A stretch of 64,000 nt of DNA, from NCBI GenBank assembly GCA_011033025.1, contig WFMF01000001.1:735755-799754 (forward strand), read 5' to 3'. This DNA comes from Beroe forskalii. Lineage: Eukaryota; Ctenophora; Nuda; Beroida; Beroidae. The translations under genes were made by a program, and so were the position numbers. Numbering within the stretch: the stretch's first letter is position 1; every line of letters begins with the position of its first letter. Positions 5,640 through 63,300 of this stretch are shown here, piece after piece. Below the pieces are notes generated by a model. The model ran no database searches. It worked only from the letters and a program-made list of their open reading frames with translations, and was not told the origin of the DNA.

Positions 5640-8600
5640 TTATAGATTTATACTTGGGTTGTTGAAAGTACAGCAGGGGCATCCTAGACACTCCAGGTTC
5701 CAGTGTAAATCTTTCTTGAACTCATTCCGTGCGTTCTGTTGTTCACACACATCCTTTTCTGTTGCACCTCCCTCAATCCTCTGCTTGTCTTCGGCAGTGT
5801 AATCGTAGCAGGTATTCTTTTCTGTTTGTTGACAAGGAGTGAGAAAAGTGTGTGCTTGAGTTGAAATAATGGAGTGATGGGAAGATCTTCATTTAACTCT
5901 CTCAAAGGTTATTTCCTGTGCAATAGTATATATTTTACGTGAGAGTTTTATGTGGGACGATAAATCTGAGGATCGGAAATTTGGGGGTCCGAAAATACGG
6001 AGAGTTTTTCAATATTGCTCAAGGACTCATGTTAACGTATTGTGATGACGTTATATTCGAATTCTATGAGGTGCAAAAATATGGGGATTTTTCCAAAATC
6101 CCCAAATTTCATTCACACATAAAATATATGCCTCGAAAAACGTTTCGTTTTAGCTATCTGTGAGACGCTGTTAATAAAGTGGGAAAAAATTGAAAATTTT
6201 CTCACTTTCCGTTTTTGTATGCAGGCATATTCCAGACAAGTAGCAAGTTTGTTGCACTGAATCGAGCATGAATTAGTATCCCTGTCAATGGGGACTGTTG
6301 CGTCACTCGTATTGACTCCTTGCACGGCACCATCTAATGAGTTGCCTTGAAAAGCCTCAGCAACACAAGTCACCAGCACTCCTTCGTTTCTGTCACACTG
6401 TGTGATACGATCATAGTTCCCTCCAATGGTTGTTGCCCCCTTACGTCTTACCTCGTAGGTTTCGTCTGATGTTTTGAAACAAATAGATTTAGCCTGAAAG
6501 AATGATAGCTGCAGTTAGCTCTGGGAATCACTGTTAAAGGGGTTGGCAACTACAGAAAAAGTACCATATTTTATTATCTAATTTACCTATAAATACTGTG
6601 AAAACAAAATGTGTGAAATCCCCATGTTTCTAAGCCCCTCCAATCGTGAGATATCGCACCTTTATGTTACCGCGCGATTGCGTCACAGTGGCAGTTCACC
6701 ACAACCCAGCGCTATGATCACTAGGTTAATGCTGTATTTTATTAGTATTTGACAGCATTGAAATGTATATTAGTGCATATTAGACGAGGCGTAGCCGAGT
6801 TTCATATGAACAATATGCATTGTAATGATGGCCAATACTAATATCAGTAGATCAGCAGAAAGATAGTAATGCATAAGCATGTATAATATGCATGTGAAAA
6901 GTGAGGGAACCTACTATAATTTAGTATAAATTATTGCTCCACCATAACAGAGCGTCGAGTTAGTTTGAGGGAGCCCGAGTTGGAATGGGGGAGCCCGAGT
7001 TTGTGGGTGAGCCCGAGTTGATTGAGGTGCACAAATAATCAAATAATATAGGGGAGCCCAGCTTTGCATGGGTGATGGGGGAGTCCTGGAAGTTAGTAAG
7101 GGGAGCCCAAATTAGTGTGGAGGAGCCTGAGCTGAATTAGTATGGGGGAGCCCGAATTAGTATGGGGGAGCCCAGGTTAGTATGGGGGAGCCCGAGTTAG
7201 TATGGGGGAGACCGAGTTAGTATGGGGGAGCCAAGGTTAGAATGGGAGAACCCAAGTTAGTATGGGGGAGCTCAGGTTAGTATGGGGGAGCCCGAGTTAT
7301 TATTGGGTAGCCCCGGTTGGTAGGGGAGTGCGAGTAAGTGTGGGGGAGCCCAAGCTATGGTGAAGCCCAGGATAAGGTGGAGCCTAGGATCAGGTGGAGC
7401 CTAGGATAAGGTGGAGCCAGGTATGGTGAAGTCCAAGGTAAGGGCGAGCCTCGTTTGGGCGATCCCATATTTCAGAGTTAGTCCAAAATATCAGTAAGGC
7501 CCAGGATAAGGTGGAGCCTGTTATGGTGAAGCCCGGCAATGAGGTGAGTCTGGTAAGGCTGAGCCCTTGTATCGGGGTTATGCCAAGGCATTGATGAAGC
7601 CCAGGATTAGGTGGAACCTCGTATGGTGACAGCTGGCAGTGAGGTGAGTCTGGTTAGGGTGACACCGAGTATAGAGGTGAGCCCCGGAAAATCAGGTGAG
7701 CCCTAGATTCAGGGGAGTGGTGTATAGGTGAGCCCGTGATTAGAGGTGATCCCATGTGAAGGGGAAGCTTGGGTACGGGTGTCGCTGTTATGTGTGATTT
7801 CAGGAATAGGGGGAACATTAATGCCTCCCCCGATTCCCGGGCTCCCATACTTGCCAACAACACCATTGTCACTGCATATGACCCGATACATTGTTCTTTC
7901 CTGTATTGTACGGCTTGCTAGATAATTTTCTGACGAGTACACTGTCTTCAAAGCTGGACATGGATCTGTTATATCACACATGCATTTTTGACCCATCATA
8001 AATGTCAATTTTTCAAAGCAGGCCTTGGCTTCTTAAATTTGAAACTTCAAAAACCTATTCGTCTTGATTAGCGTATTTTCAGGGCTAAGAAGTGATGAGC
8101 AAATATAAAAGGGGTTTCACGCACAGTAAGTAATATGTCTACTCAGATCCCCTGACCACCAGTTATGAATATTATAGATAACGTATGTGTTATGACTGAA
8201 GACTGAGAAAATTACGACAAACGGAGATGATCCAAACTTCAAGGAATCAAATAAATAAATAAAAAATCTGGTTAAATCGTAAAGGAATTAGCACCTAAAA
8301 CACGATACAGCCGTTTTACCAGTAATGTAACGCAGCGCAATAACATGTTACTGCCACAGTGACGTCATCGCGCTAAAATCTTTAAACCGCAATAACTCGC
8401 GAAATAATTAAGATAGAGAGGTGCGATTTTCTCCATTGTGTAACATGCTAGGTGAGAATTGATAAAAACATAATTATTTTCACGTTCCTGCTAGTCAATT
8501 CTATAGTTGCCAACCCCTTTAAGATTGATTTAAATGTAGAATGTATGAAGAACAATCGAATAGATTATAGAATTTAATCCTAAAACTGATCTCAGAGGAA

Positions 8601-9160
8601 ACAAATTCAACCGGATAACTTAATTCAGAATCATCATGAGGATATAAGTATATAAGCATGCAGTCTGTGGCAGTCATTTTAGATTCTTCATTTAAAGTTC
8701 TCATGCTGGTTTCAATAGGGATTTAATGATCCGAATTATCAATAATATTTTACAACCGATTATTTCTAATTCCTCGAAAAAAAAAGAAAAAAGAAGAAGA
8801 AAACAAAAAGCATGCCGCCTGAAAGCATCCTGCCCATCTTTACTGGAAGGAGTTAACTGATTTACACTGTACAGCTTACCTGAACTTTCGAGAGAGTGTT
8901 TTTCGTGTATGCTCTACAATTATTGTTAGATGTATAACAACCGCCTGAATCTTTATTTACATCCCACTTAACCAAATAACAATATAACATTTGATTAAGT
9001 GGAAATCATCAGGACAAGTCGCGTCTGAATAGTCATCAACATCTGCACTAGACCATTCACCAGTAACTAATACGGCGATGTCCGACAAGACTTTGTATGC
9101 GTGTCCAAGTGGGACCAAACAACAGTGTACCCACGCCAATAGGACATAGACGGTCTTCAT
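5640..9160 (-). CDS. Cysteine-rich secreted protein gene, possibly damaged
   Basis: I infer this gene from splice-bounded exons read on the minus strand. Exon 1 (9160-8880) starts with a signal peptide (MKTVYVLLAWVHCCLVPLG) followed by a Cys-rich segment with CPDDFHLIKC and GGCYTSNNNCRAY, and ends at CAG|GTAAGC. Its two halves are in different frames, so a small frameshift lies near 8966-8975. A further exon inside 7854-8040 contains KCMCDITDPCPAL and RVICSDNG. The exon at 6493-6206 (after TTCTTTCAG) reads AKSICF..., with CNKLATCLEYAC near its end, and is phase-compatible with exon 1. The last exon (5821-5640) contains CYDYTAEDKQRIEGG and CLGCPCC and stops at 5640-5642; its splice phase is not resolved. 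The spacing vaguely recalls cysteine-rich convertase tail modules, but I do not identify the family. The gene is absent from unit 2. It could be a recent pseudogene. Confidence 0.5.
6538..8518. mobile_element. TTAA-inserted element with terminal inverted repeats
   Basis: The ends are AGGGGTTGGCAACTA at 6538 and its complement ending at 8518, each flanked by TTAA (6534-6537 and 8519-8522), as for piggyBac- or Kolobok-type insertions. Subterminal regions are also mirrored (GCGTCACAGTGGCAGT on the left against ACTGCCACAGTGACGTCA on the right). No transposase is visible. The interior holds a minisatellite and, oddly, one exon of the surrounding cysteine-rich gene. Confidence 0.7.
6955..7790. repeat. 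Minisatellite, unit about 20 bp
   Basis: The core unit is close to TATGGGGGAGCCCGAGTTAG, repeated most regularly at 7130-7310 and decaying into GTGAGCC/GGTGGAGCC variants toward 7790. It lies within the TTAA element and within an intron of the minus-strand cysteine-rich gene. Confidence 0.85.
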
Positions 9161-9255
9161 TTTTCGATATATAAAATTTCCAACAACTTTAAACGGAAAA
9201 TAAGTCTTTTGAAGTGAGACACGCTTTATTTAAAGCTACGTTGGACCTTGCGACA

Positions 9256-9352
9256 CAATGAGTGCCATGCGTAACACAATGAGTGCCATTAGTCACATAA
9301 TGAGTACTAGTCACATAATGAGTACTATTAGTCACATAATGAGTACTATTAG
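9256..9352 (+). repeat. Short tandem repeat at the start of a small open frame
   Basis: Copies of CACAATGAGTGCCAT and CACATAATGAGTACTATTAGT follow each other. An 80-codon open frame (9258-9500) runs through the repeat and continues non-repetitively to a basic stretch, FGRRRRTALVSS. The frame has no recognisable domain, and I do not claim that it is expressed. Confidence 0.5.
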
Positions 9353-10352: not shown

Positions 10353-10360
10353 TTGTTTAG

Positions 10361-11101
10361 CTAAGTGAAAAGAAGCGGGCCCAAGAAGGGTAATACTAAA
10401 ACAATAGATTTCTTACTTACTGTATCAATATGGGAAGGTGGATCACTATATTTCTTTTCTAAAAATTCATTAATACACCTGTGAATTAAATGTGCAGGAA
10501 ACCCATTACTTTTAAACTTGTTAGTAAGATGAGTTAAATCTTTATGAAACCAAGCATAAGTAGTGGCAATGGAATAAACCCTATAAATCAAACATTTAAT
10601 TAAGCTAAATTTGTAGGCAATAGGAACAAAGCTGTCGAATCCGTAGAACAACCCTCGGTCTGTAGCTTTCACTTTGGTAGAAACCTCAGTGGAAGGCACG
10701 GACAATGTCCGGTGAACCAAGGTGTCTAGGAAACCCAGTTTGTTATCACTTTCCAATTCTAGATCAAACTGTGTGGAGGGATCAATGCTATTTATGAAAT
10801 TAAGAAATTGCTGTGCTCTTTCCTCACAGGTAAACAAACAAAACGTATCGTCTACATATCTCCTATAAAAATCAGGATATAATTCACTATGAGTCAAAAA
10901 TTCTTCCTCTAAATATGCCATCCAAATATTAGCTAAGATCGGACCTAAACTACTCCCCATGGCAACACCATCGTGCTGCTCGTACACCTTACCATCAAAA
11001 ACAAAAGTACTATTAACCACACACAATCGGATGAGTTCACGTAAAACATGTTCTGGTAAAGAACATGTAGTACTTAGAAAATGTTGAGCGGAATCGACCA
11101 C
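10361..11101 (-). pseudogene. Penelope-like reverse transcriptase, 3' copy (5'-truncated)
   Basis: The homologous part starts at SLPEHVLRELIRLCVV near 11067. Upstream residues of the frame derive from the 3' end of the other copy. It carries HDGVAMGSSLGPILANIW, RRYVDDTFCLF and a longer C-terminal thumb (YAWFHKDLTHLTNKF, AHLIHRCINEFLEKKYSD) than the 5' copy. It lacks motif A, so it cannot be a complete polymerase. A frameshift near 10375 separates it from the endonuclease domain. Confidence 0.85.
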
Positions 11102-11125
11102 TCCTGCGTATTAAGAGTCTGTTTT

Positions 11126-11542
11126 CTACCTAATTTGAGCATAATACTCTCCATATAGCGAAGCCGAAGATTTGTGTGAACATCTTCCAAGGATTTCAGT
11201 GTCCTTGAAGTCAAATTCACACTCGGGATCACCCGTTTCGGATATGCAAATGAAGGGCACTATTCTTAGTCCTAGCATTAAGATGGCCGTTAGAACCGTA
11301 AAATCTTTCGTAAACTGTGTTTTTGGTTTTACCCAAATAAGCCAAAAGGGCCCACATTTTTTACATTTAGTGTAATATATTACTCCTGATTTACATTCAA
11401 ATGGTAGAACATCTTTTTTAAATTTGAACAAATTACCTAATGAAAGACCTCTCTTAAACACAACTTTAAGCTCAACACACGGGTAAAATTTAGTTATTAC
11501 TTTCTTCAATTGTTTAGCTAAGTGAAAAGAAGACGGGCCCAA
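11126..11542 (-). pseudogene. Penelope GIY-YIG endonuclease, 5' copy (damaged)
   Basis: The frame contains KKVITKFYPCVELKVVFKR and GVIYYTKCKKCGP, the first half of the GIY-YIG domain with its CxxC pair. It then shifts frame: the YLGKT part is read as WLIWVKPKTQ. The thumb region at 11543-11757 is also frame-broken. Compared with the other copy it has several small insertions and deletions, so it is not functional as written. Confidence 0.8.
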
Positions 11543-11757
11543 GAAGGGTAATACTAAAACAATAGATTTCTTACTTACTGTATCAATATGGGAAGGTGGA
11601 TCACTATATTTCTTTTTCTAAAATTCATTAATACACCTGTGAATTAAATGTGCAGGAAACCCATTACTTTTAAACTTGTTAGTAAGATGAGTTAAATCAT
11701 TATGAAACCAAGCATAAGTAGTGGCAATGGAATAAACCCTATAAATGAAACATTTAA

Positions 11758-12369
11758 TTAAGCTAAATTTGTAGGCAATAGAACAAAGCTGTCGAATCCG
11801 TAGAACAACCCTCGGTCTGTAGCTTTCACTTTGGTAGAAACCTCAGTGGAAGGCACGGACAATGTCCGGTGAACCAAGGTGTCTAGGAAACCCAGTTTGT
11901 TATCACTTTCCAATTCTAGATCAAACTGTGTGGAGGGATCAATGCTATTTATGAAATTAAGAAATTGCTGTGCTCTTTCCTCACAGGTAAACAAACAAAA
12001 CGTATCGTCTACATATCTCCTATAAAAATCAGGATATAATTCACTATGAGTCAAAAATTCTTCCTCTAAATATGCCATCCAAATATTAGCTAAGATCGGA
12101 CCTAAACTACTCCCCATGGCAACACCATCGTGCTGCTCGTACACCTTACCATCAAAAACAAAAGTACTATTAACCACACACAATCGGATGAGTTCACGTA
12201 AAACATGTTCTGGTAAAGATGGTGGAGTAATGTGTGATCTATATAACCTATCCATACAAATGTCTACGGTACGTGTTAGTGGAACATTGGTAAACAAAGA
12301 CCTTACATCAGTGATTACATTAGATAATATTATATTAATTTCTTGTTGGTTTGCTGCGTTATGTAACAT
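11758..12369 (-). pseudogene. Penelope-like reverse transcriptase, 5' copy (truncated)
   Basis: The 203-residue frame covers the palm of a Penelope RT. It contains DVRSLFTNVPL (motif A region), HDGVAMGSSLGPILANIW (motif B), and FYRRYVDDTFCLF with the catalytic YVDD, followed by KLGFLDTLVHR. The frame opens only about 20 residues before motif A, so the N-terminal fingers and everything upstream are missing. It ends at LLPTNLA because of a single-base difference from the second copy, which reads on. The start of the frame lies inside the inverted terminal arm. Confidence 0.85.
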
Positions 12370-12581
12370 ATTTTTGTGATTTTGTGTGTAAGGTCGTCTA
12401 GTTTAAATTTACCAGTTTAAAAGATCATCTTCAGTGTGCTTGTAGGCAATAACTATTATATATTCGCTTGTTAGCATTGTATAATAAATCAAAATTCAGG
12501 TTGAAAATGGCATAAAGCATATGTCGAAATATCCCTATAATGACGGCTTTTTATTTTGTGGTCAAGTTTACATTATTATTA

Positions 12582-15186: not shown

Positions 15187-15473
15187 ATCTCTAATATAAA
15201 GTCGCGTTTTCTGTTTTTTTGTGTCTGTCACGCCCCATTGCAACGCGTGCACAGTGGTAAAAGTGCACGTGCAGATGAATTGCGCGCGCGTTCATTTCTG
15301 TTGATGCTCTCTTGAGTACGTTGTTCCGCAACTTTTGAGATTGGAATTTTTTGATAGGGTAAAAGTATTTAATCAATTTTAACTTTTTGATTGTAGTGTT
15401 TGAAATTTGCGAACGAGGTGCTGCGTAGCAGCGCCGAGTGAGCTTTGTATTTGCAGGCCCAACGGGCCTGCTA
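15187..15473 (+). mobile_element. Helitron-like end pair (tentative)
   Basis: It starts TCTCTAATATAAAGTCGCG and ends in a perfect hairpin GCAGGCCC-AAC-GGGCCTGC whose last bases run into CTAG. It is followed directly by another TC start (TCTTACTTATAATGTCGC at 15474). The unit 2 copy (34721-34803) has lost about 200 internal bases and has one mismatch in the hairpin. The hairpin sits closer to CTAG than is typical, so the class is uncertain. Confidence 0.45.
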
Positions 15474-16398
15474 GTCTTACTTATAATGTCGCAAATTCTG
15501 TTTTTTTTTTCTTTGTACGTTACGCCCCATGGCAACGTGCGGGCAGAAGGAAAATTGCACGTGCAGATTGATTGCGCGCGTGTCCATTTCTGTTTAATGC
15601 TGTTTTGAGTACTTTGCTCCGTAACTTTTGATCCGATAGGAAAACGGCGGTTTCCGCGCAGCATTAACTGAGTAACTGCCGCTATGTCACTCACTGCCAC
15701 TTTTGCATTATAACAGACATGAAGTTATACGTTAACATTGCAGCAGTGGCTGCATTGAAACTACCATTTTCTTTCTCATATCATAGTTTGTGGTAGAGAA
15801 TTCCAAACTTCAGCTTACAATCCCAACCATTTGAGTCTCATTTGTCTCCGCAAATTTTGTCCCATTTTGCATTTGTTCCAGGTCCAATTCACTTTTTAGC
15901 AACATTTGTTCTATTTTCTCTGTCCCATTGGTCCCTCCCCAATCCACTTTTTCTTTAGTAAGGGACAATTGGGGCAGTGGCACCCCCCCCCCCCTATAAA
16001 TCATATTTTCCCTCTCTCATTGGGGAAATTATAATTTGCCAAATTCCAGGAATAACAAGTAAATTAAAAGTCCACCTCCCACTTACTAAGTTACTATTCG
16101 TATGATTGCATTGTTAAATGAAAAACAGGACACAAAAAGATTCTAGGAAAAATAAATTATTGCGTTGTCGGCTTGCTGGCTCAGAGGTTAAATCATTTGA
16201 GATTTCACAATGCAAAAAAAGTATAATTGATGGGTCAGAACAAACCTTGAACCTTCGCTTTGTTTAGCTTTATACTTCAATAAGCTCATGAAAACGAAGA
16301 AAATATTAGATACAGTACTTTGCTAGTTTGCCGGCGCCAATATTTTCTTCTTGAATAATATTTTTGAAGGCTTTACTTCTATTCCAACAGCTGTAACA
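15474..16398. other. Duplicated noncoding DNA with low-complexity runs
   Basis: The segment matches about 34804-35720. It holds TTGTCCCA-rich sequence (15838-15975) and a C-homopolymer near 15985 that differs in length between units. No gene is seen. Confidence 0.55.
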
Positions 16399-17342: not shown

Positions 17343-18270
17343 CGACAACTATCTAACTATTGTTCTCATCATAACTGAGGTGTCGCCACCTCTGAGATCG
17401 GTGTCTGAAGTTTCCACAAAACCGCCATTTGTACGTGCGTGATACCGATTTAACAGTATATAGTAGTCTCACGACAAGTTTTGACCGATTTAAAGGGTAG
17501 TACTATATGCGTAGAGTCGTGTTCTACACGCGTTTTATATCGTGTGTTTGTTATGACTTACAACTTTAAATGTAAATCTATGCGACCTTTGTATTTGCGT
17601 TACAAAAATGTGCATATCTCCGAGGTTTTTTGAGCAAACTTGATGAAACTTTCAGGATATTTAGAGCTAGATATAAGCAACATCTCAGTGAAGTTTAGAT
17701 TCATTTTGAGCCCCAGAAGCGGAGTTATGACCGAAAAGCCACTTAATAAGCGGTAACTTTAAAAACAAAACACCAGTTTATTTGTCATATCTCAATTTCT
17801 GGAGGTCAAAAATGTTAGCTACTCCAGGATTATATTGGTCATATCTTGCCCGTAATATCCTGAAAATTTGATCAAAATTGCTCAAAAAAACGGCTGAGTT
17901 ATGCGCTTTTTTTGTTCTGTATAAACAAGCATTTTTATTATTACCATATAAGGTAATGTGCTTGTTGTGTACAGGGTGTGTCTTGTGTACACCGTTCGAC
18001 TAAAACTCACCGTTATAGGCTCAAACTCACCGCAGAAATATGATTTAGAGCACTCGGCTCAGCTTCGCTTCGCCTCGCACTCTAAATCATTTAAATGTCT
18101 CCAGCTGCGCTGTCGACATTTAAATATTATATAGAGCCCTGCTCTCGCAGGGCTCTATATTGTCTGCGTGTTCGTCTTACGCCTCTAAAGTACATATAAT
18201 CCACGTACGTACATGGCGCCGCGCGATCGGAAATTTCAGAATAATTCTTATTTCTCGAGGTCGCGACACC
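17343..18270. mobile_element. Unit-1-only insertion ending in three strong hairpins
   Basis: The unit 2 sequence jumps from GATATGGCG to CAGTAATATTAC with about 0.93 kb missing, so this is an insertion here or a deletion there. GGTGTCGC(C/G)ACCTC occurs near both ends in inverted orientation (17383 and 18256). At 18042-18163 three hairpins stand side by side, with perfect arms ATGATTTAGAG, ATTTAAATGTC and ATATAGAGCCCTG. No coding frame is present. Confidence 0.55.
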
Positions 18271-23100: not shown

Positions 23101-24457
23101 AATTTAAGTAATTGTACGCTCATTTCCGGGTGTTTTTATCTTCGAGCGTTCTAGCCAATGAATTTACATAAAATCGAGTAATTTGATTCCAATATAATTC
23201 ATATGCACTCCATAATTAAACGGGCACTTTTGACACTTTTGTAATCCTGCCTTTCCGTGATTACCTTGGCACTTTATCTCCGGTACGCTGAGTTAATCAT
23301 GGAGTTAATTAAGTAACCTTCTTTGTGTGAAATTGAATGTACTATAAATCCGCCATTGCTATTGGTTATTGTGTTGCAGCCATTCACATCTATTATACGC
23401 TTAGAGCATGGCTGGGAATGCGCTAATAGAAATTATTGCACGAGGCGTAGCCGAGTGCAATAATTTGTATTGTCGCACGAGGAGCAGGCCGAGTGCGACA
23501 ATACCAAATTATTGCACGAGGCGAAGCCGAGTGCAATAATTTTATTAGCGTCATGACCATTTGCCATGCTCTTAGTGTATTAGCCAATGTGAGGAGTGCA
23601 ATATTACTTATTATTGCACGCCTACAAGTACCCTCAAAATTGGCTAATAACTATTAGTTGATGACTCCCCTATTTTCCATCCAACTAATTAACTTTTCTA
23701 GGTTGCTTATCTATCACTCCCGACTATTCAGGCATTTCATCTCACGACACTTAATCTCACGACACTTCATCTCCCTGTCCTGACCCTAACTATAAGCCAA
23801 ACCGTAACCGGAACACTAACTCTCACCCACACCCAAGGGTATCACGAGTCCCAATCCTGGTTGGGACTTGACGGTACCCCGGAATAGCAACACTGGGCAA
23901 GAAGTCTCTTCCCGTAACCATGTTGTCAACACCAATGTGCTCCCGGCATATTGGTCCTCCTGGGGAGGTACGGGACTTGTTCCCATCCACAGTAGCCCTG
24001 GCAACAGGGACCTCCCAGCGGGAGGTCCCGTGCAGGGGACTCTGTTTGGATCTCTCGTAAATCCATCCCCCGTTTAGTAGTAGCACCCACACACTAACCC
24101 AGACCCTTACGTTTGCGTAGAGTTGGCATATTGCGAGAGATGAATTAATGTCCGTTATCCCCTCCCCAGGTCGGTAAGTACGTTGCCCGGGTATACCGCA
24201 CCCTCTCCTGCTGCCCAGTTAACCCCACGCTCTACTACTCCCTGGGACCACGTGACACACTCGGAGCACGTGACCTGCTCTCCGAGACACGTGACAGTGA
24301 CGCGGAGGAGAGCGAGTGTGACGATATCACCATGGTTACCGTTAACCTGGATACGTCTAGCCGGCAGGGCGTGTGTACGCGGGTGGGAATCTGGTGTTTG
24401 GTCGTGTTGAACAGTAGCGTCGTGGTGGTTATTGCAGTGGCGTTGCTGCATACGTAG
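20190..24457 (+). CDS. Cytochrome b561-domain protein, 3' exons (unit 1)
   Basis: Five phase-consistent exons: 20190-20318, 21530-21680, 22549-22628, 22818-22918 and 24170-24457, with GT-AG borders. The product has the successive membrane helices of a b561 domain: ILMVLVWLNVTPLATFIARY, then WFTIHKYSGLL, then LHRHQMVGFGMLAVILSHIL with ALCRP, then VFWEVLHRLGAVLLVTGSIF, then LLAIQVTAWCLLFMAME. Histidines in IHKY, HRHQ and LHR match expected haem-ligand positions. A hydrophilic acidic tail and a last hydrophobic stretch (VVLNSSVVVVIAVALL) end the protein. The family (ferric-chelate reductase 1 and DOMON-b561 proteins) moves electrons across membranes. The first exon starts in the middle of a helix, just after the usual HG, and no upstream exons are recognised, so this may be a gene fragment. 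Confidence 0.8.
20346..20509. mobile_element. Small MITE in b561 intron, unit 1 only
   Basis: Near-perfect terminal inverted repeats: AACGCATATGTGTGCAGACC on the left and, on the right, the complement starting AACCCCTATGTGTGCAGACC, both continuing GCTCGAT. Inner GGCCTCGATAA motifs are also mirrored. Unit 2 lacks it (GATTTTAGTACAG at 43582). Confidence 0.85.
20930..21520 (+). repeat. Minisatellite in b561 intron
   Basis: Units combine AACACTAGCCCCC, TATCCTCCTCGTGG and AACACTAACCCCCTGATGA (about 45 bp), repeated across about 590 bp. The unit 2 array (44005-44070) holds roughly one to two units, so the array has expanded or contracted strongly since duplication. Confidence 0.9.
23395..23595. 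repeat. Foldback carrying three GC-core hairpins
   Basis: The ends are TTAGAGCATGGC and GCCATGCTCTTAGTG. Inside are three hairpins at about 23432-23468, 23463-23505 and 23500-23542. Each has AT arms (ATTATTGCAC/GTGCAATAAT or GTATTGTCGCAC/GTGCGACAATAC) around a core such as GAGGCGTAGCCGA. A matching lone end occurs inverted at 33440-33470 in unit 2. Confidence 0.75.
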
Positions 24458-27965: not shown

Positions 27966-30900
27966 TATATCCACTCGCGTGCGCTTTTTGAAGACATTTT
28001 AGGTTGCGCGCGGCCCGGTAAAATATCTGCACGCTAAATTTGATATACCCAGCGGATATAGCCCTGCCGCGAGAGCAGTTCTGCGTCAGTTGCAATATAG
28101 CCCGCCTCTTGGAAGAAAATATTTTTGGTGCTAAACCGGCTGAGATCATTGAAAGTGTCCACAACAATTTTAGCAGCAAAATATCGATCATGAGACAAAA
28201 ACTGGCAACAGAAGGATTTTTGTGGAGTTGATTATCGACAAAACATCGAGGCGATGGAAAGTTAAGAGTCAAAACACTGAAACTGACATCATTGTTCAGC
28301 AGCTACTGAATCATGAAATTATGAGAAGTAGTTCAACTTCGAAATAGAATTAATAAATATTCAGCAAAAATATGTGGTAACAGTAGACAAAAAGTCAAGT
28401 CAAATAGCAGAGAAAAACAGTGAACTGCAGTGATAGCAGTGATAGCAATGATAGCAGTGATAGCAGCAATTCTGTAAAATTCTGTAAAAGCAATCATTCC
28501 AGAAAGAGAAGTAAAAGATACAAAATCAAAAACGAGAATGAAATACAATATCATGAAATAAAGTTAGAATTTGCATTTGTGTTGATCATTAATTGCATTG
28601 CCATGTTGTCATGGTTACACATTCTTCGGAAATAGCAAAGAGGTGAGTGAGAGCAATACGTCATTATCATTAGTAACAATGGTGCATTACTTTTCTCACA
28701 CACAGCGGATACGATGTAAAATAAATGCCGCCTAATTACCGCGACACTCTGATACGTTGTGCAACTTCCCGTGAGAAAAATTTTGAGGGACACTTTATTC
28801 TATTGACTTACCATATTCAACCATGGTTATTACGTCATTCTCATTTGTCTATTATAACAGTGCTGCAGAGTTTCATCAAATGTAAATACGCTCATTTTAA
28901 CTCATTTTCTCTCATCGTTTTGTATCTCTTTTCAAGTTCTGCTGTAACTGATGCGTTTCACAAAGTGACATGCTACCATTTTCCCCTTTGTTTGTTTTTC
29001 CAATTATTGTTTGTGTGTCTGGTGATGTTATGTTTTGTTGATGTCAAAGTCTAAGAAAGAAGGTGGTGGTTCTCTAGTTATTTGGTGTTGTGGTATTTGT
29101 TCAAAGCAGTTGAAAAGTGAGTCACAGCAAATTGGATGTGATGGGCAGTGTGGTAAATGGTACCATGCTAGATGTGTCAAGATTGATGCCAAGAGTTACA
29201 GAAAACTTGCTGCAGATTCAAACTCTGAATGGTTCTGTCCACAGTGCAAAGACAGCCCAAAGCAACAAAGTGGACTGACTCAAGTCATCAAACAGATCAG
29301 AAGTGAGGTGGAAGGAAATGCACCTGCAAAAGTGGACCTCCCAGATCCAGAGACCAAGTCTACCTCATTAAATGAAGCTGTCTGGGGCACTCTTAAAGGT
29401 GCAGAGATTTCCAATGCTGTGAATGAGGTGTACAGAAATATTGTCACATGGAAGAAAAATGTTTTTAAGGTTCCTACTGGGAAAGCAGGACAGGATTTCA
29501 TTGAAGAAGTTACAAAGGTCCTAGGTTTTTACTTATCTGGCTCTCACTTTGAAAGTTGTGCTATGACCATGGTGATGATCATGTTCCCTCTGCTCCTCCA
29601 AAAGCCATCCCAGAAGTCCAAAAGTAAAGACCACAGTAAAAGGCTAGCAGAGAGACTTCTTTTGTGGAAGTCTGGTGATATACTAACTCTCCTTAGACAG
29701 TGCAGCAAAATCCAAGAGACTAAAAAGTCCCAAGGCAGATGAAAACCATCATGAAAAGATTTTTGCTCGGCTCATGCTACAAGGTAAAGTGTCTGCAGCA
29801 CTCAGATGGGTTGGCAGTCAAAGAAGTGGTTTGCTTGAAATCAGTGATGAAGTTGTCAGTCATCTCAAAGAAAAGCACCCTGCTCCTGGTGCTGTGAATT
29901 ATGAAGCACTCTTGAAAGGACCAGCCGAACCCTTTGAAGATGTAGTATTTGACTCTATTGATGCTGAAGTCATCCACAGAACTGCCAAAACAATTAGTGG
30001 TGCTGCAGGTCCTTCAGGTGCTGATGCTGAAATTTGGAAACAGATCCTGTGCTCAAAACAGTTTAAAAAGAAGCCAGAGGAATTGTGTGCCACAATTGCA
30101 GAGCTAACAAAGAAGTTATCCTGTTGTATTGTCAATCCTGAACATCTCAGAAGTTATACTGCAGGGAGGCTCATTCCATTGGATAAAAAGCCAGGTGTCC
30201 GTCCAGTGGGCATAGGTGAAGTTCTTAGACGAATTGTTGGAAAGGCTATAACAACTGTATTGAGACCTGACCTGGTGAAAAGCACAGCACCAATCCAAGT
30301 GTGTGCAGGCCTCCAAGGGGGGTGTTGAAGCAGCTATACATGCTATGAGACGCATGTACAATGATCCAGACTGCCAGGCAGTCTTACTTGTTGATGCTGA
30401 AAATGCATTCAACTCCCTCAACCGCATGGTGGCCTTACACAACATGAAATATACCTGTCCAAACTTGTTCAGATACACAGTCAACACATATCGCCAGCCA
30501 GCTGATTTGTTTATTGGAAACACAGAAGAATCACTTCTTTCTCAAGAGGGTACAACCCAAGGTGATACTAGTGCAATGGGTATGTATGCCGAAAGTCTGA
30601 TGCCTCTTATTGAAGGACTCAAGTCACATGTTAGCAAAGACCTGAAGCAGATTTTCTATGCTGATGATGCTGCTTCAGCCGGGAAACTAGAAAACATCAG
30701 GAAATGGTGGGCTAGCCTCCAAAAGGATGGACCAATATATGGCTATCATCCAAAACCCAGTAAAACCTGGTTGATTGTAAAATCAGAATTCCATGATGCT
30801 GCCTTAAAACTGTTTCCTGACATAAATGTTACTGCAGAAGGACATAGGTACTTAGGATCATATATTGGCTCTGAAGAAGGAAAATCTATCTTTGTCAAAA

Positions 30901-33015
30901 AGGAGGTTGATGAATGGATAAAAGACATTACTGGGCTATCAGAAATAGCATCATCAGAGCCACAGCTTGCATATGCTGGATTTGTGTATGGTGCTTCAAA
31001 AAGGTGGAATTTTCTAGCAAGAACCACACCAGGAGTGTCAGAACTGTTGAGTAGGCTAGAATACCACATAAAGGACGTGTTCATTCCAGTTATCCTGGGA
31101 AAACTACATGTATCTGAGCAGTTAAGAAAGATATTTGCCCTACCTGCCAGAATGGGTGGTCTCAGCATTGCTAACATTTGTCAAACAGCAGAGCTGGAAT
31201 ATGGTAATTCTACTCTAGCAATGGAAGATTTGACAAATGCCATATACAACCAAGAGAGCTCATTCAATGTTGATGAATCCAAACAAAATAAGGTCATCAC
31301 TCAGGTCAAGAAGAACAGACAAACCTTTTATGATCAATATAAGGATGATTTGGAGAAGGAGATCAGTCCCCTTGTACAGCGACAACTTGAACTACTCTCA
31401 GAGAAAGGGGCCTCATCATGGCTTACTTCACTACCTTTGAAAGAATATGGTTTTCTATTGAATAAGCAAGAATTCCACGATGCTATCAGTTTGAGGTATA
31501 ACTTGACTCTGAGCTCATTGAACAGGCCACGTCTATGTGTGTGTGGTGAACCAAGTACAATCAACCACTGTCTCACCTGCAAACTTGGTGGCTATGTTTC
31601 CCTGAGACATGACTCATTGAAAGGTACCATTGCAAAACTACTTCAACAGGTATGCAAGGACACAGTAATCGAACCAAGCCTGATACCTATAACCACTGAA
31701 CAGCTCCAAAGGGGTACTGATGTCAGTGATGGGGCTCGACTGGATGTATGCACAAGAGGTTTCTGGACACCTTTGGATAGAGCATTTACTGATATAAGGG
31801 TATTGCACCCACAAGCTCAATCCAATGCGAACACAAGCCTCTTTCAGATGTACAGGAGACATGAGAATGAGAAGAAAAGCAAGTACAATGACAGGGTACT
31901 GCAGGTTGAAAAGGCAACGTTTACACCCCTAGTGTTCAGCACAACTGGAGGCATGGGTAACGAAGCCTCTAGATTTCTAAAGCATTTGGCTGTGAAACTG
32001 AGTAATAAGAGTGGACAATCATACAGTGACACTGTTGCCTTTGTGCGGAGGCGCCTAAGATTTGACCTTCTCAAGACATGTGTCATTTCTCTCCGGGGCT
32101 ACAGAGGCAAGCCCAATGGTAAAACCTCAGAAATGGATACACTTGATCTAAATCTTATACCTAAAACTGATTACTAATTTATTGGGGACGCTAGTCCTAC
32201 TTTATTGAATTGTGTGTTTTTTATTGCAAAGGCATATAATATCATTGTTTGGATGTTTGCACCCTACTTTTTGACACTGACATTAAAATATGGGTTTATT
32301 GGCTATCATAATAGATTCTAACATCGGGTGTTTTTATAATTTGATAGATTTTTAATTCAGATATATTTAAGTATAATTGAATTGTTTATTCTATAATCAG
32401 ATTTGTAATCATGTTTCTCGGTGCTCTGGGATTCCCCAACATCAAATTACATTATATGACATTCATATAGGTTGCTTTTATATATTGATATTCGTCAGAC
32501 TGTTGAAAATATTTTGATTTATTGTTATTTATTGTTATTGCGATACACCATTCATTATGAATGTCTGGTGCTTACTCGAGCTATATAATATTTTACTCTC
32601 TTCGGAGATTTTTTACACATTATTGTTTGTTTTTCCAAGATTGCTAGTGTTTTAAGTTTAATTAACAGCATCTAACCACATTTTTAGCCAATAATCCTTC
32701 GATTGCAAGACCTTTGAGATTGATCCGTGCTTTGATTCGATTCGCCTTTAAAATTTTCGCCCTCGGGCCCTTCGGGCCCTCGGGCTCATAACTTCTACAT
32801 AAGCTTTGCCAACCCCTTCGATCAAATACTTACGGTGCTTAATCGTGTTTGTATTGCATTTGTGAAAAAATTAAATTTTTGTTAATTAGAGAAAAACTCA
32901 ATATTATTGTTGCAAAAACCTTCCTGTGTGTTCAAATCTTCGAGGATTTACTTGAACATTCAACTTTTTCATCTTAGATATGCCATTCTCCCAAAAGCTC
33001 ACGCGAGTGGATATA
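27966..33015 (+). mobile_element. RT element between short terminal inverted repeats
   Basis: TATATCCACTCGCGTG at 27966 continues CGCTTTT, and its complement ends at 33015 with one mismatch in about 23 bases. Comparison with 5283-5310 shows that foreign DNA enters exactly at 27970, the left repeat. On the right, another foldback (33011-33200) follows before unit 2 resumes at about 33193. The interior carries the PHD-RT gene on the plus strand. 27990-29040 (upstream) and 32178-32990 (downstream) are noncoding, with a GTGATAGCA microsatellite at 28430-28468. Confidence 0.55.
29041..32177 (+). pseudogene. PHD finger - reverse transcriptase - restriction-like endonuclease protein
   Basis: The gene runs across three frames (29041-29742, then to 30328, then 30303-32177). 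Slips lie near 29715 and in a six-G run at 30314-30319; removing one base at each would join the frames. The first segment has a PHD finger (WCCGICSKQ..GCDGQCGKWYHARC..WFCPQCKD). The RT core follows: DKKPGVRPVGIGEVLRRIVG, LLVDAENAFNSLNR (motif A), EGTTQGDTSAMGMY (motif B), IFYADDAASAGK (motif C, catalytic ADD) and HRYLGSYIGS. The C-terminus has RLCVCGEPSTINHCLTCKLG and RHDSL, then DGARLDVCTRGFW and AFTDIRVLHP, which I read as a zinc-knuckle plus PD-(D/E)XK-like nuclease, as in RLE-type non-LTR elements. Catalytic residues look intact, so inactivation is recent or due to consensus error. Family placement is by inference. Confidence 0.8.
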
Positions 33016-33200
33016 TACCATACTCCTCGCCTCATGGGCTGAATTTCGTATAGCACTCGGGCTCTTCGAGCCCTGCGTGCTATACGATATATATCCCACT
33101 CGGGCTAGCGCCCTCGAGGGATATATTTTCATATCGCACGCGCATGCGCGTGCGATATGAAATTCAGCCCTAGAGGCTGCGGGTATATGTATATATATGT
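33011..33200. repeat. Foldback with nested GC-core hairpins
   Basis: The outer arms begin ATATATAC..CCTC and converge on GGGCTGAATTTC / GAAATTCAGCCC (33036-33047 and 33159-33170). Inside are three hairpins: GTATAGCACTCGGGC..GTGCTATAC, TATATCCCACTCGGGC..GAGGGATATA and the perfect palindrome TTTCATATCGCACGCGCATG at 33128 onward. It sits at the right edge of the insertion in unit 2. Confidence 0.8.
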
Positions 33201-49951: not shown

Positions 49952-51015
49952 ATGGATGAACTTGATGAGTTGATGGATTTACAGGGGGGTCCTCGTATCC
50001 AACGACCACTCAAAGATCGCTTGAACCCACTCCACGAATATGATGATGTAGAATTTTTTACGAGGTATAGAGTCAATAAGAATGGATTTGCAGCCATTCT
50101 TGCTCGCGTTGAACCAAAACTGAAACGTTTCACGAAGGGGACAAATCGGCCACTCAATTCAGTGCAGCAGCTTTCATTGGCATTAAGGTTCTTTGGAACT
50201 GGTTCCTTTCAAGTTGTTGCCGGTGACATTCTTAAACTACACCAATCAACTGTTTCCAAATATATGCCAATCCTCACTGGTGCAATAGCTTCCCTTTCAA
50301 ATGAAGTCATATGTTTTCCTGACAACCTTGAAAGTACGCATAAATTTTTTGCAGAATACTGTGGGCTTTCCGGAATATCCGGGATCATTGACGGTACTCA
50401 TATACCAATACAAAGTCCGGGAGGGAGTTATGCCGAAATATTTCGTTGTAGGAAAGGCTTTTTTTCCTTCAACGTACAAGTTGTTTGTAATGAGAACTTG
50501 AAGATAATGAACATTGTATCTGGTTGGCCGGGGAGTACGCATGATTCACGTATTTGGAACAATTCAACTATCTGCGTAGAGTTTGAGGAAGCTCGTATAG
50601 AAGGTATGCTACTTGGAGACTCTGGTTATCCTCTGAGTCCTTACCTATGATTCCGTATCCGTATCCTCCCAACTCACGTCAGAGGGGCCGGTTCAATCGA
50701 GCTCTGTGCAAAGCACGTTGTACTATTGAACGTTGTATCGGTGTTCTGAAGAGGAGATGGCCATGTTTGTCACGGAAGTTACGATGCAGATACGACAGGG
50801 TTCCTGATATAATAGTAGCATGTGCTGTCCTTCACAACTTATGCACTGAGTACAATCAGCCGCATTTCGGAGATATGGAAGAAGATAATGATGATGAGGA
50901 TGCTGTCAAGGCTATATCACAGAATGATGATTACGTTGAGTATCGACCTGGTTCCAACTTCGTATTTGCTGGAGAGGAGGTTAGAAACATGCTATCTGAT
51001 AGGTTTGCTGGTTAA
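49952..51015 (+). pseudogene. Harbinger DDE transposase (one frameshift)
   Basis: The first frame (49952-50650) has an N-terminal helix-turn-helix-like region (QQLSLALRFFGTGSFQ, HQSTVSKYM), then IIDGTHIPI (first Asp) and WPGSTHDSRIW (second Asp), ending LLGDSGYPLSPYL. The second frame (50647-51015) continues at once with IPYPYPPNSRQRGRFNRAL and TIERCIGVLKRRWPC (catalytic Glu) and VACAVLHNLC. One base is missing at about 50645. All catalytic residues are present, so the lesion is recent or a sequencing error. Family: HARBI1-like nuclease that cuts at 3-bp TWA targets. Confidence 0.9.
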
Positions 51016-51497
51016 AACTGGGGCGTCCCCCAAGGATGTAACACAGATAGTCATCGGTTACGATTTTTACTTCAGAGTTTATGTTCTGGGCCAAAGTTAT
51101 TCTTATGTGATGGTTTATGAATTCACTGTACTGTTTTTATCATTTCATTTTAAAGCCCGAACTTTTATCAAATTTTATTTACTATTTTAATCTTTAAAAT
51201 ACCACTAACATTGATGAAGATATTGCTGGAATTTCGGCTGGAATATTGATTCTATTTATTGTTTTATAAATCGTCTATTTTATTAATTCATTATTTTAAT
51301 AGTCAGTGATTTTACTTTCAGTTGTTACAGATATTCAATGTATGCATATCAGTATTCACATTTTATCGTTACCGCACGATATATTGCTTTCTATAAATTC
51401 ATTATCAATATCTTTGTAGCCTTGTGATAAAAGTATTGATGTAAATAATAATGCACTTGTTTAATAAATAGAAAAATAACTGATTTTACAGTTCAGA

Positions 51498-52433
51498 ATG
51501 GATATCAAAAGTGAATGTGACAAGAAGGGCAACGTGAAGAAGGATGTCCAAAACGGTGGAAAGAAGAAAAGATCTGCGCAGTTCAAAAAAGAAGAGATAA
51601 AGTTCCTGACGAAACTGGTTGGAGACCGCAAGCAAATATTGGAATCAAAAACTACCAGCAGGGATGTTAAGGACATAGCAAAGAAGGCAAGATCTTGGGA
51701 GGACCTTGCGACGGCCTTCAATGCAGGTTGTCAATTCACAGAGGGAAGGACTGTCAGTGAATTACGCAAGAAATGGGAAAATGTGAAAACTGAAACTAAA
51801 AAAGATTCAGCAGAAAGGAAGAAACAACGACTCAAGACTGGAGGTGGTAAGGCCCCAGAGGCTCCAGTTAACGAGATTTTCGCTATGGTTGAAGATGTCA
51901 TAAAGGGGACTATGGAACCTATTACAAGTCGCTATGACAGCAACAATCTTGGTGTACTGAAGGAAGAGGAAGAGGATTGTGAACTTGTGGAGGTGCAGGA
52001 TGAAGAGGAGCAGCTTGTGGACTCGTTAATTCAGCAAATCGATAATGATCTCGAAGAAGCAAGAACCCCGTGTGTCAAGAATCCTGAACAACCCAAAGCC
52101 AATGCAAGTTCACGGTCTGCACTTGAGGAGACACCCAGACCAAACAAGCGGAGTCTCGAAGAAGCCCTGGAGCCACCAAATAAGGGCCGAAAGTCCAATC
52201 AAACCAAGGCTACAGATGGATATAACAGGAGAGCTGAAGAACTCCACGAAGCTAAGATGGGACTAATAGCCCTGAAGTCACTACAGGCGTCTGAGCGCCA
52301 TTCGAAGTCCATGGAGCTAATGAATGCTCAGCTGGCTATGGTGAACAAAGGACTCATAAACCCTGTCAATATGGGAAGCTTTGTTCAAGAATTAGAACTA
52401 GAAGATGCTCACGATATGATGAACCTTGTTTAA
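51498..52433 (+). CDS. Harbinger-associated Myb/SANT-like DNA-binding protein
   Basis: An intact 311-residue ORF starting MDIKSECDKKGNVKK. Residues about 25-100 form a trihelical Myb/SANT-like domain (AQFKKEEIKFLTKLVGDRK, SWEDLATAFNAG, SELRKKWENVKTETKKD). An acidic middle and a conserved-looking C-terminal helix (AKMGLIALKSLQASERHSKS) follow. In Harbinger elements this second protein binds the transposon ends and helps bring the transposase to the nucleus. It lies 483 bp downstream of the transposase, in the same orientation, before the right terminal repeat. Confidence 0.9.
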   Translation: MDIKSECDKKGNVKKDVQNGGKKKRSAQFKKEEIKFLTKLVGDRKQILESKTTSRDVKDIAKKARSWEDLATAFNAGCQFTEGRTVSELRKKWENVKTETKKDSAERKKQRLKTGGGKAPEAPVNEIFAMVEDVIKGTMEPITSRYDSNNLGVLKEEEEDCELVEVQDEEEQLVDSLIQQIDNDLEEARTPCVKNPEQPKANASSRSALEETPRPNKRSLEEALEPPNKGRKSNQTKATDGYNRRAEELHEAKMGLIALKSLQASERHSKSMELMNAQLAMVNKGLINPVNMGSFVQELELEDAHDMMNLV

Positions 52434-59328: not shown

Positions 59329-60388
59329 ATTGGCTAGTTCTTGGCACAGCTATAAGAGATATAGAAGGTGAGCTTGGAAATTTTAGACAGGGGAATAAGA
59401 AAATGGTAAAAGAAGCACTGACTCAATCCATCCGCATCGATAGTCTTTCATTAATCAGCATTCACTGGACGATGTGTTGAGTGAGAAAAAGAATGATTGA
59501 GATATTTGAGATACTTGATATTTGAAATACTTGAACTACACCTGGCTTTTAACAGAAAATTTCACCATGCGGGTTATTGCACGCCAATAATTCCACAATT
59601 AATGAAATAAACAGCCTCAAACAGCAAATTATGAAAACATTTATTTGAAGCAAATAATAAAGCTTAATAACAATAAATAAGACATTTAAAATAATCCAAA
59701 TATAAACTCATAGCGTCATTTGGCAATGCAAAATCCTCTATTTTAATAATAAAAACAATCTCAAATTTAAAACTGAGCTGCGTTTTTGTAACATGAAAAA
59801 TGAAATGAGAGCGACGACGTAGCTTTAACTTTTTCAGCATAACTTGAACTCATAGTTTTAAACGAAAGGGCAAAAAAGGCAATTTTGGCTATAAATTTAC
59901 AAATAAATCAATATCACATGTCTATCGAAGAATGTCGCACAAAAATCATGAAAAACAACAGATGTTTCACAATCAACAATACAGGAAAAGGACTTTCTTC
60001 TTGATGCTGATATAATCTGTTTTTGGACTTGTTACGAGCTCTTGGATTCTTGAGCGCTTAGAAATGATAGGAAAGGAATCAACCGACAGAGAAATTCAAG
60101 GAACACTGCATCCAGATACATAATAGGTACATCGCACATCTAGATATACAACAATAATATGTATACCTAAATAACACACTGTATCTCGATACAAACACAC
60201 AAACACCACACTGTACTGTGGCCGACGCAGAATATAAATACTGTATCTACAAACTGTGAGCTGACACATCGTACACACACGTCATCATCATACGCACATT
60301 GTACAAACTATACATTGTACAAATGTACAATGTACAATGCACATTGTACACGTTGTCAATATATATATATCGCGTGGGTGTGTCTCGG

Positions 60389-63300
60389 CTACCTGGCGCC
60401 GGGGGAGTCTGGCACTGTGATAGGGGCACCGGACGGCTCTGATCGGATAGTTAATGGTTTGGGGGCTGGGGCGGGAGTAGCAGCTGCAGTAGTAGTTGTG
60501 GTGATGGGGGCTGGGACTTGAGTCGAGGTACCCGCGGCTTGCTGCTGCTGGGCTTGGAGCTGTTGTTGTTGGACAAGGAGCGCCAGACGTTGCTCGAATA
60601 AAGCTCGTTCAGCGGGGGGTAGCTGAGAGTTTGGATAGAGATTATAGAGGCGTCAATTGTCAAATAAGCGGTTACATGTCGAAGTGGTGACCGTATACCG
60701 CAACTTACATGGTCGAGGCGACAGCCGAGACTGTGTAAGTTGGATAATGGACGAGGCGTGCCGAGTTCATTATCGTAGGTATACGGTCACAGCTGAGATC
60801 ATGGAACCGGATTATACCCCGACCGGAAACAGCTGGGACCAACTATTCTACGGCCAAACAACAGTTTTTCTTCCCACTCGGGTCTCACGACCCTCGTCCG
60901 GATTCAACGCTTAAGTAGATTTTTGAGTGCTCCTTTATAAAATCAAATTTCATTTTAAGCTTTTTTGCACTGTTATTCAGTGGAGACCGTATAACGAAAC
61001 TTACACGGTCGCTAAAACAAGCTTGGGAGGGGTATAATGTTTATTAGATGCTTGATTGAAGGGATTCAACAGCAGTAGATAGAAAAAAAAGAAATTGGTT
61101 ATGTTATATGAAACTGAAATTTCAATTCGTATGAACGTGACAATATACTGTCATGTCCATAGCTGCCAAACTTTGGAAATCCTTCGACAGGGCATAAAAA
61201 TGGACCAAAAAGCAGGGCAAATGCAGAAAAAAACAGGGCATATATCCTTATGTATCTTTATAAGAGGTGTCGACCTTTTTTTTTTTTGGACGCTACCCTG
61301 GAAAGGCCATCCGAGGTAGTGCTTTTTGGGTATATTTTCCCATTTTCAGGTATATTTCAGCTATATTTTAGGTATATTTCATGAGAATTCGTTCAGCAAA
61401 GGTATATTTTTACTTTATTACGTATATTTCCAAAATTTATCCGAGACAGTGCTTAATAGGTATTTTTCCAAAATCCATCCGAGACAGTGCTCAATAGGTA
61501 TATTTCCAAATTCAACCCGGAACAGTGCTTGATAATTTAATAGGTATAGTTCAAAAATCCATCAGAGACAGTGCTTAATGCTTAAAAAGGTATATTTTCA
61601 AATTCCGTCGGAACGGTGCTTACAGTATATTTCAAAATTCCATCCGAAACAGTGCTTAATGCTTAAAAAGGTATATTTTCAAATTCCGTTGGAGACAGTG
61701 CTTAATAATACTTGAAAAGGTATATTTCCAAATTATATCCAAGACAGTGCTTATTGCTTAATAGGTATATTTCCAAATTCCATCCGAGACAGTGCTTAAT
61801 ACTAAAAAAGGTATATTTTCAAATTCTATTCGAAACAGTGCTTCATGATTTAATAGGTATATTTTAAAATTCCGTCGGAAACAGTGCTTAATACTTGAAA
61901 AGGTTTATTTCCAAATTCCATCCGAGACAGTGCTTATTGCTTAATAGGTATATTTCCAAATTCCATCCGAGCCAGTAATTAACACTAAAAAAGGTATATT
62001 TCCAAATTCCATCCGAGACAGTGCTTATTGCTTAATAGGTATATAAATCCAAATTGTATCCGAAACAGTGCTAAATAATAAGTTAACAGGTATCTGGTAT
62101 ATTTTCAAATTCCATATAGATGATAAATAGACGAATAGGTATATTTCAAAGTTCTGAGGCAGACCCATATAAATTAATAGGTATATTTCTGGAAAGTGGC
62201 GACCTTTTTTTTTTTTTTTGGAGGCGACCCAAAAATGGTAATCTAATTGCTGGGTATATTTTACGAAGAAAAAAACAGGGCAAATTGGTCGAAAAGCGGG
62301 GCAAAAGAAGGGCTTCCCAGGGCAAGGGCCCAAAAACAGGGCAAAAACAGGGCATGACAGGGCGCCCTGTCAAAAACAGGGCATTTTGGCAGCTATGGCT
62401 CATGTCGAAAGTCCTCGGTAAAGAATGTACTGCACGCATACAGGACGATCTGTGTAGAGTTATTAACTGGTCCTCAATCAATAACATGGAACTCCATGAA
62501 GACAAGTTTCAACTACTAAGCTATCCCCTTAATAGCTCTTACCTCCTAAGACAACTACCATTCTATCCTGAAAATGTCCAGTACAAAACCCCTAAAGGGC
62601 ATGTTATAGAACTGACAGACACTGCTAGGGACTTAGGGGTTCTTGTTTCAAGTGACAGATCCTGGTCGCCGCACATCGAACAGACTGTCCAGGCAGCCCG
62701 TAAAATGGCATCTTGGGTCCTCAGTGCATTCAGTGATCGTTCCTCTGTTGTCATGCTGACTCTCTACAAGTCAATGGTGCGTTCCAGACTGGAGTACTGC
62801 TGTCCTGTTTGGAACCCTACCAAGATCTCAGACATCCAGAAGTTAGACAATGTCCAACGATGCTTCATCCGCAAGATAGCCGGACTTAAAGACATGAGCT
62901 ATTGGGACCGTCTCAGGAAGCTAAATATGATGTCACTCCAACGGCGAAGAGAAAGATACTGCATCATTCAAGTTTGGAAAATCGCCAACGGTCATGCCCC
63001 TAATGACGTTGAAATGCAGTTCAAGGACCATCCTCGGCTTGGGATCAAGGCAATCATCCCACAGATTAACACCAAGGCCCAGCTCTCTATTCGTAGCAAT
63101 TACGATAGTTCATTTGGTGTTAGAGCAGCTCAGCTATGGAATATCTTGCCATCTGACGTCTCACGACTGAGTTCACTTGATAGCTTCAAGATCGGTTTGG
63201 GCAGGTTCCTTGAGCAGTTCCCGGATACACCTCCTGTTCCGGGGTACACTGCTGTGAACAACAACTCATTGCTGAGCTGGAAGGAGACGCGCACGACGCA

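Follow-up and report, generated by a model that had tools for sequence, protein, structure and literature searches.

Replitrons are eukaryotic transposons of the single-tyrosine HUH type that carry short direct repeats at their ends. IS608 inserts 3' of a motif that is retained in its left flank, and guide bases beside its hairpins recognise both the cleavage and the target sites (PMC5934647; this and the other sources cited below are drawn on in excerpt). In Fusarium, Helitron2 elements possess unequal inverted repeats, and two of the subgroups have GAA-loop hairpins at the 5' side (PMC5148889); the Helentron-derived HINEs combine subterminal repeats and hairpins with T-rich targets and the lack of a target-site duplication (TSD) (PMC4067079). 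According to these excerpts, one repeat of the Fusarium and mite elements lies at the 5' end or close to it, and the other 38-60 bp inside the 3' end. Here we describe hairpins from a 64,000-nucleotide window of the ctenophore Beroe forskalii (contig WFMF01000001.1, positions 735,755 to 799,754). Their sequences suggest that they probably serve several families of small non-autonomous transposons as 5' recognition modules, and that these transposons move as a single folded DNA strand, most likely by means of an HUH-type enzyme.

The original prediction for this window was that a GC-rich core recurs between self-complementary arms of changing sequence. Such hairpins are indeed real and frequent. 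Throughout the 216-Mb genome (1134 contigs; one genome, about 0.3 Mb of which was read), the exact core CGAGGCGN{0,20}GCCGAGT occurs 2562 times (1268 + 1294), compared with 11 times (2 + 9) for the same pattern read backwards. Window cores with self-complementary arms lie at 6785, 23441, 23479, 23517, 60714 and 60752 on the forward strand and at 18077 on the reverse strand; the arms at 6785 pair with one mismatch. Two further sites, near 33055 and 33090, turned out to be variant cores, one with GCA against GA (33047-33086) and the other with GA/GA (33089-33126). The looser form expected near 15410 is present as a core at 15413 with only about two outer pairs.

Of 28 sites selected on nothing but the core (three lie in the window and some belong to the same family), 20 had at least seven of nine outer positions paired. 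The corresponding figure for a 15-base core in viral contigs was 8 of 124 matches, drawn from at least 120 stretches. Not all of 20 genome sites examined conformed: one (L120) is not such a hairpin, two (L102 and L115) are poorly paired, and three (L108, L110 and L116) are of a type, E, whose outer arms remain unpaired. The latter three have a long inner stem and barely paired outer arms, and behind these comes another hairpin, of the GGGCC type. In genome_contigs a 21-base pattern of the core gave a single match, in a Saprospiraceae contig (L121:7608-7628), where it has a GGA loop, follows a gene and precedes a run of T, much as a bacterial terminator does.

To each hairpin its own arms belong. 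In 28 distinct hairpins, picked for having GA/GA and mostly paired arms, own partners pair at 258 of 280 outer positions, whereas shuffling of arms, which contrasts own with swapped arms rather than with random sites, gave 163.3 on average and never more than 192 (n=10,000). Arm identity between these hairpins averages 4.8 of 10 positions, with a conserved inner base counted in. The claim that arms change their sequence while keeping their complementarity is thereby borne out.

What the families have in common is a structural code. Read on the CGAGG strand, it consists of an arm, pyrimidine-GA-purine, an inner stem, a C(GNA)G or C(GNNA)G loop, the inner stem again, pyrimidine-GA-purine and the second arm. 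From family to family the arm sequence varies, while pairing, the GA/GA mismatch and the loop are retained. The pyrimidine-GA-purine motif is found on both strands of 27 of the 28 distinct hairpins, and the C(GNA)G or C(GNNA)G loop in 24 of them (the inner loop of hairpin 3 of family B included), the exceptions being two AAA loops, one GT and one irregular loop. Bases beside the GA covary: one hairpin (L004:1425) has T-A outside and another (L004:1465) has A-T inside, and hairpin 3 of B nests two GA/GA motifs. Two hairpins within the modules, hairpin 1 of B and hairpin 1 of C, depart from the code in having no GA.

The same features emerged when they were left free in the search pattern. With the dinucleotides free (CNNGGCGNAGCCNNGT), 95 of the 100 places listed first had GA opposite GA and none was fully Watson-Crick. 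With the loop free, GNA occupied 93 of the first 100 listed (82 GAA, 10 GTA and 1 GCA), the other seven being TAC, GAG, ATT, AAA twice and ATA twice. Each search found 1311 places, as opposed to 0 for the reversed free-loop and 9 for the reversed free-dinucleotide pattern; the copies in both are related and hence not independent events. Among the window's hairpins with a mismatched 2x2 internal loop of whatever kind and at least six outer pairs, both strands being listed, GA/GA and its reverse-strand equivalent TC/TC were the commonest classes with 5 of 24 rows each, one of the five appearing unrelated by eye. Across 355,738 scanned bases, enriched for these elements through the way they were fetched, there were 10 distinct GA/GA hairpins and at most two of any other class except its own complement.

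These data bear on how the hairpins arose. The original prediction offered two explanations, repeated formation by template switching or foldback copying around a core, and selection for a cruciform. Foldback copying is disfavoured because it should produce perfect palindromes and would erase conserved mismatches, while GA faces GA in 95 of the 100 places that were listed first. A related explanation, namely that complementarity is maintained by quasi-palindrome (template-switch) correction and not by selection, would account for arms that diverge and yet remain complementary; the same correction would remove GA/GA, which those 95 places keep, and we consider it extremely unlikely. Selection on the structure, in turn, is supported by the sequence comparisons. 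The selected form is more likely a single DNA strand, always the same one, than a double-stranded cruciform, because the G.A and G.T pairs are possible on that strand only and because, in all six families with both ends read, it is on that strand that the module comes first, at the 5' end.

The sequence context of the mismatches and the loops is consistent with folding of single-stranded DNA. Tandem sheared G.A pairs in DNA favour pyrimidine-GA-purine. DNA mini-hairpins whose GNA or GNNA loop is closed by at least two G-C pairs are, in the part of the literature drawn on here, exceptionally stable (PMC4686876). Any hairpin, of course, could act as RNA, and the structures might instead belong to a transcribed and retroposed structured RNA. 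Tandem G.A pairs are stable in RNA too. Such an origin would be very improbable given that no poly-A tail was present at the ends read, that the ends and the head-to-tail junctions are exact, that the tri-loops are GNA, and that four of five four-base loops (GACA, GCCA, GTCA and GCTA) are not of the RNA-type GNRA form. Rfam reported no family at gathering score in the window, a result that neither helps nor hurts the RNA explanation.

Beyond what the original prediction described, larger closing stems enclose the hairpins, one to three at a time, and every such set forms the 5' end of a repeated, non-coding mobile element with sharp ends. The window holds copies of elements that we call A, B, C and D (Table 1). 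The 39 best other places of B are 93-96% identical to its window copy, and a complete C copy measures 1628 bp (L040:1510-3137), of which the window copy retains 580 bp. Two more families were delimited elsewhere, F with 175 bp (L003) and I with 845 bp (L004). Because 40 candidates were scored in each family search, copy numbers are lower bounds; first-look candidates, unscored, amounted to 764 for A, 1263 for B, 737 for C and 1276 for D. Within a family, then, the hairpins are plain near-identical copies (98-100% in A), as expected of a miniature inverted-repeat transposable element (MITE), and this much of the MITE alternative holds. Across families the arms are unrelated, and with at least six families read at both ends (A, B, C, D, F and I) plus more modules, a single MITE is rejected. 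Terminal inverted repeats, a classical feature of MITEs, did not exceed the shuffle level in any of the six.

The six families share a common anatomy, which comprises a 5' stem enclosing one to three hairpins, a short guide, a body and the 3' end. In all six, the best complement within the element of the 3'-terminal 12 nucleotides adjoins the far side of the 5' stem, with 10-12 of 12 matches, at positions 183 (A), 188 (B), 177 (C), 146 (D), 99 (F) and 175 (I) of the element. Counted from the 3' end, the exact complement extends over 11 nucleotides in A, 10 in B, 16 in C, 10 in D and 7 in F; in I, 11 of 12 bases match and the last is mismatched. Shuffled 3' ends (n=500) equalled the match 0 times for A, C and I, 21 times for B, 7 times for D and 16 times for F. 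We accept the guide because it occupies the same location in all six families. In C, the closing stem ahead of it is taken from the DNA fold only.

The elements begin with TACG (A), TGTA (B), CATA (C) and (T)AAGC (D). With ^ marking the boundary, A has the left flank TAWTA^ and the constant right end GGCTAATA^, B has TATA^ and CTACTATA^, D has WAA^T and GGGGTATAA^T, and the two copies of I have TAATATA^ and GTAATATA^; C ends in GGATATA. In A (31 copies), B and D, no TSD, another classical feature of MITEs, was seen beyond one or two constant bases; in 2 of the 31 A copies that have both ends, the last two bases of the left flank equalled the first two of the right flank. The canonical signs of Helitron1 (5'-TC, 3'-CTRR, insertion between A and T) were absent, except that A alone has CTAA and then T.

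The left flank also appears to resemble the element's own 3' end. Over its last five bases, the mean number of matches was 4.31 in A (next best 3.13) and 3.50 in D (next 1.86), so that on sequence the likeness seems clear for these two families, and 3.62 in B (next 3.46), where it is narrow. A B copy in L079 has TACA as its left motif, and its right end is still TATA, which speaks against a duplication. Insertions of elements into one another were observed as well. A young A lies inside another A, at GCGCTAATA^GAAATT within the 5' module, in 3 of 30 A loci (L032, L033 and L035), which thus provide empty sites; the host copies are 92% (L033) and 80% (L035) identical. Among the same 30 loci, a fourth such insertion sits between two hairpins (L027), and in L059 a C copy lies inside the matching spacer of another C.

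Copies also adjoin head to tail. Six adjacent pairs of D were listed, and all three that were read have an exact junction (L069-L071); of three B pairs, spaced by 728-752 bp, the one that was read (L085) does too. A-A junctions of the sequence expected from the two ends occurred 8 times, compared with 0 for the control. Different families also join, C standing directly behind D in L043 and F directly behind I in L004 and L243. Spacings of 766-770 bp, as between I and F, occurred in three pairs of core matches among the first 100 listed, L242 being one of them. In a further element, G (L011 and L038, near 1750-1950), a long closing stem TAGGATAATCAAACACCC encloses three hairpins that follow the code, and in L038 this element lies directly behind A.

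A motif on both sides of the element and copies arranged head to tail would also be expected of Crypton-like transposition, in which a tyrosine recombinase acts through a double-stranded circle and the TA-rich motif is the crossover core. Phage_integrase does have 7 matches in the genome that pass the cut-off (E 5e-7 to 5e-4). We regard this mechanism as improbable, as it leaves the hairpin features confined to one strand and the guide unexplained.

In the mechanism that we favour instead, the element would act as a single strand whose 5' end folds into the branched module. The strand closing the 5' stem would run on into the guide, for which there would be two possible pairing partners, the 3' end of the element itself and a target 3' end. 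This pairing would stack on the 5' stem and lay the chosen partner against the element's 5' end, and the left flank, having a similar motif, could occupy the same place as the element's own 3' end. An HUH-type nuclease would swap which 3' end is joined to the 5' end, yielding circles or dimers with the element's own 3' end and insertion with the target. The G.A pairs and GNA loops would make the single-stranded hairpins rigid and, because arm sequence is free, they may be what the enzyme reads.

This scheme shares features with IS200/IS605 elements such as IS608, which in the portion of the account cited show subterminal single-stranded hairpins, a left-flank motif, a guide beside a hairpin and a circular junction (PMC5934647). 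The relation between left-flank motif and guide appears, in sequence, to hold in A and D and narrowly in B. Unlike IS200/IS605, the elements described here have one guide, which is located 3' of the 5' module and is plainly complementary to the 3' end; they are eukaryotic, their modules are branched and contain GA/GA and GNA loops, and their genome gave no Y1_Tnp match. Since they share parts of the IS608 and of the Helitron2 plan and show the defining set of neither, we would place them provisionally, as non-autonomous members, among elements of an HUH-like single-strand type. That they represent a eukaryotic class in its own right, with ends recognised by DNA shape and with target and 3' end both chosen by one built-in, IS608-like guide, is a more speculative proposal, which we put forward tentatively.

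Alternatively, the elements may be non-autonomous Helitron2 or Helentron derivatives of the HINE kind that have unusually elaborate ends and are moved by the RepHel proteins of the genome. This is a plausible account, though not the one we favour. Helitron2, Helentron, HINE and DINE-1 elements, so far as the excerpted sources describe them, are likewise eukaryotic and combine the absence of a TSD with unequal inverted repeats, terminal hairpins and tandem copies (PMC5148889; PMC4067079). The elements at hand, for their part, show no terminal inverted repeats, hairpins close to the ends, a repeat pair set at unequal distances from the two ends, and tandem copies. Fusarium Helitron2, moreover, starts with GAA-loop hairpins closed by C-G and inserts beside TNAT (PMC5148889), and the Beroe genome has 20 Helitron_like_N matches. 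The repeats described here, however, sit the opposite way round from those of the Fusarium and mite elements: one of them forms the very 3' terminus, and the other begins 99-188 nucleotides inside the 5' end. In addition, the targets are TA-rich and differ by family instead of being TT, as many as three hairpins share one stem, and no RepHel protein is linked to the elements. The surroundings of 8 of the 20 Helitron_like_N matches (L087-L100, partly fetched) showed no hairpin of this code and no shared ends; they were judged by eye with ends not all reached, and the few GA/GA stretches in them look like chance.

Helitron2-type frames on two contigs (C1099 and C432) were considered as partners and set aside, as their partly fetched flanks fold into another kind of hairpin and show none of this code. 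These loci (L097-L100) encode Helitron frames of 2871 and 2814 residues flanked by arrays of other hairpins, and the flank on C432 contains the repeat TGCGATTAAAAGT in both orientations.

The lack of partners around the Helitron_like_N matches is one of several points that weigh against transposition of the elements by an HUH-type enzyme through a folded strand and a guide. The elements are tied to no enzyme by these searches. The Y1_Tnp profile, which would detect a TnpA of the IS200/IS605 kind, had 0 matches in the genome, with controls that rang in 5 of 14 cases; Viral_Rep likewise had 0, and since its controls were silent too, that search is uninformative. As to structure, the 28 distinct hairpins were picked by GA/GA and arm pairing and about 16 of them come from loci fetched for the core, so that these features are partly built into the sample, and DNA energies give the A module another fold because its hairpins 1 and 3 share arms. 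Regarding the guide, the match is only moderately rare in B, D and F when each is taken singly, the simple test found no partner for the first 12 bases of C (best 8 of 12, elsewhere), and in 9 of 39 cases the left flank of A reads TATTA, which mismatches the guide at one base. As to the ends, F and I were each read in two copies, and a TA duplication in A or a one-T duplication in D could hide in the constant bases. Finally, the bases preceding C are almost constant (TATATATA); the left boundary of C is therefore open, and its target match says nothing.

Short, probably mobile hairpins of varied sequence have also been described in mitochondrial DNA (mtDNA), as the repetitive hairpin elements of sponges (PMC2800124) and the GC clusters of yeast (PMC4478555). 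Both differ from the elements studied here in being mitochondrial. The sponge paper does not contain the string CGAGG in its main text (PMC2800124), and the yeast clusters covered by the excerpt are flanked by short direct repeats (PMC4478555). Among the open-access papers listed, judged by title or the start of the abstract, none describes the present elements.

If our interpretation is correct, these elements are eukaryotic transposons in which folded single-stranded DNA addresses both the element's ends and its targets, using hairpin motifs known to us mainly from oligonucleotide chemistry. The many families built on one code would amount to a natural covariation experiment on what the enzyme needs. 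The guide rule also makes a prediction, namely that when the guide is changed, the target should follow.

Table 1. Elements and their parts in the 64,000-nucleotide window
Feature	Position	Strand	Remarks
Element A, complete, 254 bp	23396..23649	+	40 places scored including window: 98-100% identical
A hairpin 1	23432..23464	+	arms ATTATTGCAC/GTGCAATAAT, GA/GA, C(GTA)G loop
A hairpin 2	23467..23504	+	GA/GA, irregular loop
A hairpin 3	23507..23541	+	GA/GA, C(GAA)G loop
A guide TATTAGCCAAT	23578..23588	+	exact complement of 11-nt 3' terminus
A 3' terminus ATTGGCTAATA	23639..23649	+	
Element B	17459..18194	-	736 bp in L083; guide region of window copy unlike that of L083
B hairpin 3	18040..18090	-	two nested GA/GA motifs, C(GAA)G loop
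B hairpin 2	18090..18124	-	GA/GA, C(GCA)G loop
B hairpin 1	18129..18160	-	perfect stem without GA
Element C, 5' part only	32610..33189	-	outer 5' boundary blurred by TA run
C hairpin 1	33127..33162	-	perfect palindrome without GA
C hairpin 2	33089..33126	-	GA/GA, C(GCTA)G loop
C hairpin 3	33047..33086	-	GCA/GA internal loop, C(GAA)G loop
C guide region	33002..33015	-	in L040, 16-nt exact complement of 3' end
Element D, 373 bp	60666..61038	+	
D hairpin 1	60701..60742	+	GA/GA, C(GACA)G loop
D hairpin 2	60743..60774	+	GA/GA, two-base or four-base loop
D guide ATTATACCCC	60811..60820	+	exact complement of 10-nt 3' terminus
F-like copy	about 6774..6918	+	hairpin 6774-6819, 3' end near 6903-6918 (compare L003:1460-1634); 5' end approximate
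E, looser form	15406..15495	+	core 15413, few outer pairs; hairpin 15453-15471; TTTGCGA/TCGCAAA closing stem

The window also contains protein-coding traces of other mobile elements. On the reverse strand, 10361-12369 holds two tandem, largely identical frames; the one that was scanned matched RVT_1, and by eye they look Penelope-like. On the forward strand, 29035-32177 consists of a PHD-finger frame followed by two long frames that look reverse-transcriptase-like by eye, had no Pfam match at E 0.001 and stop about 430 bases ahead of the cut edge of element C. At 49952-52433, also on the forward strand, a DDE_Tnp_4 transposase adjoins a Myb/SANT-like protein, presumably the arrangement known from Harbinger elements.

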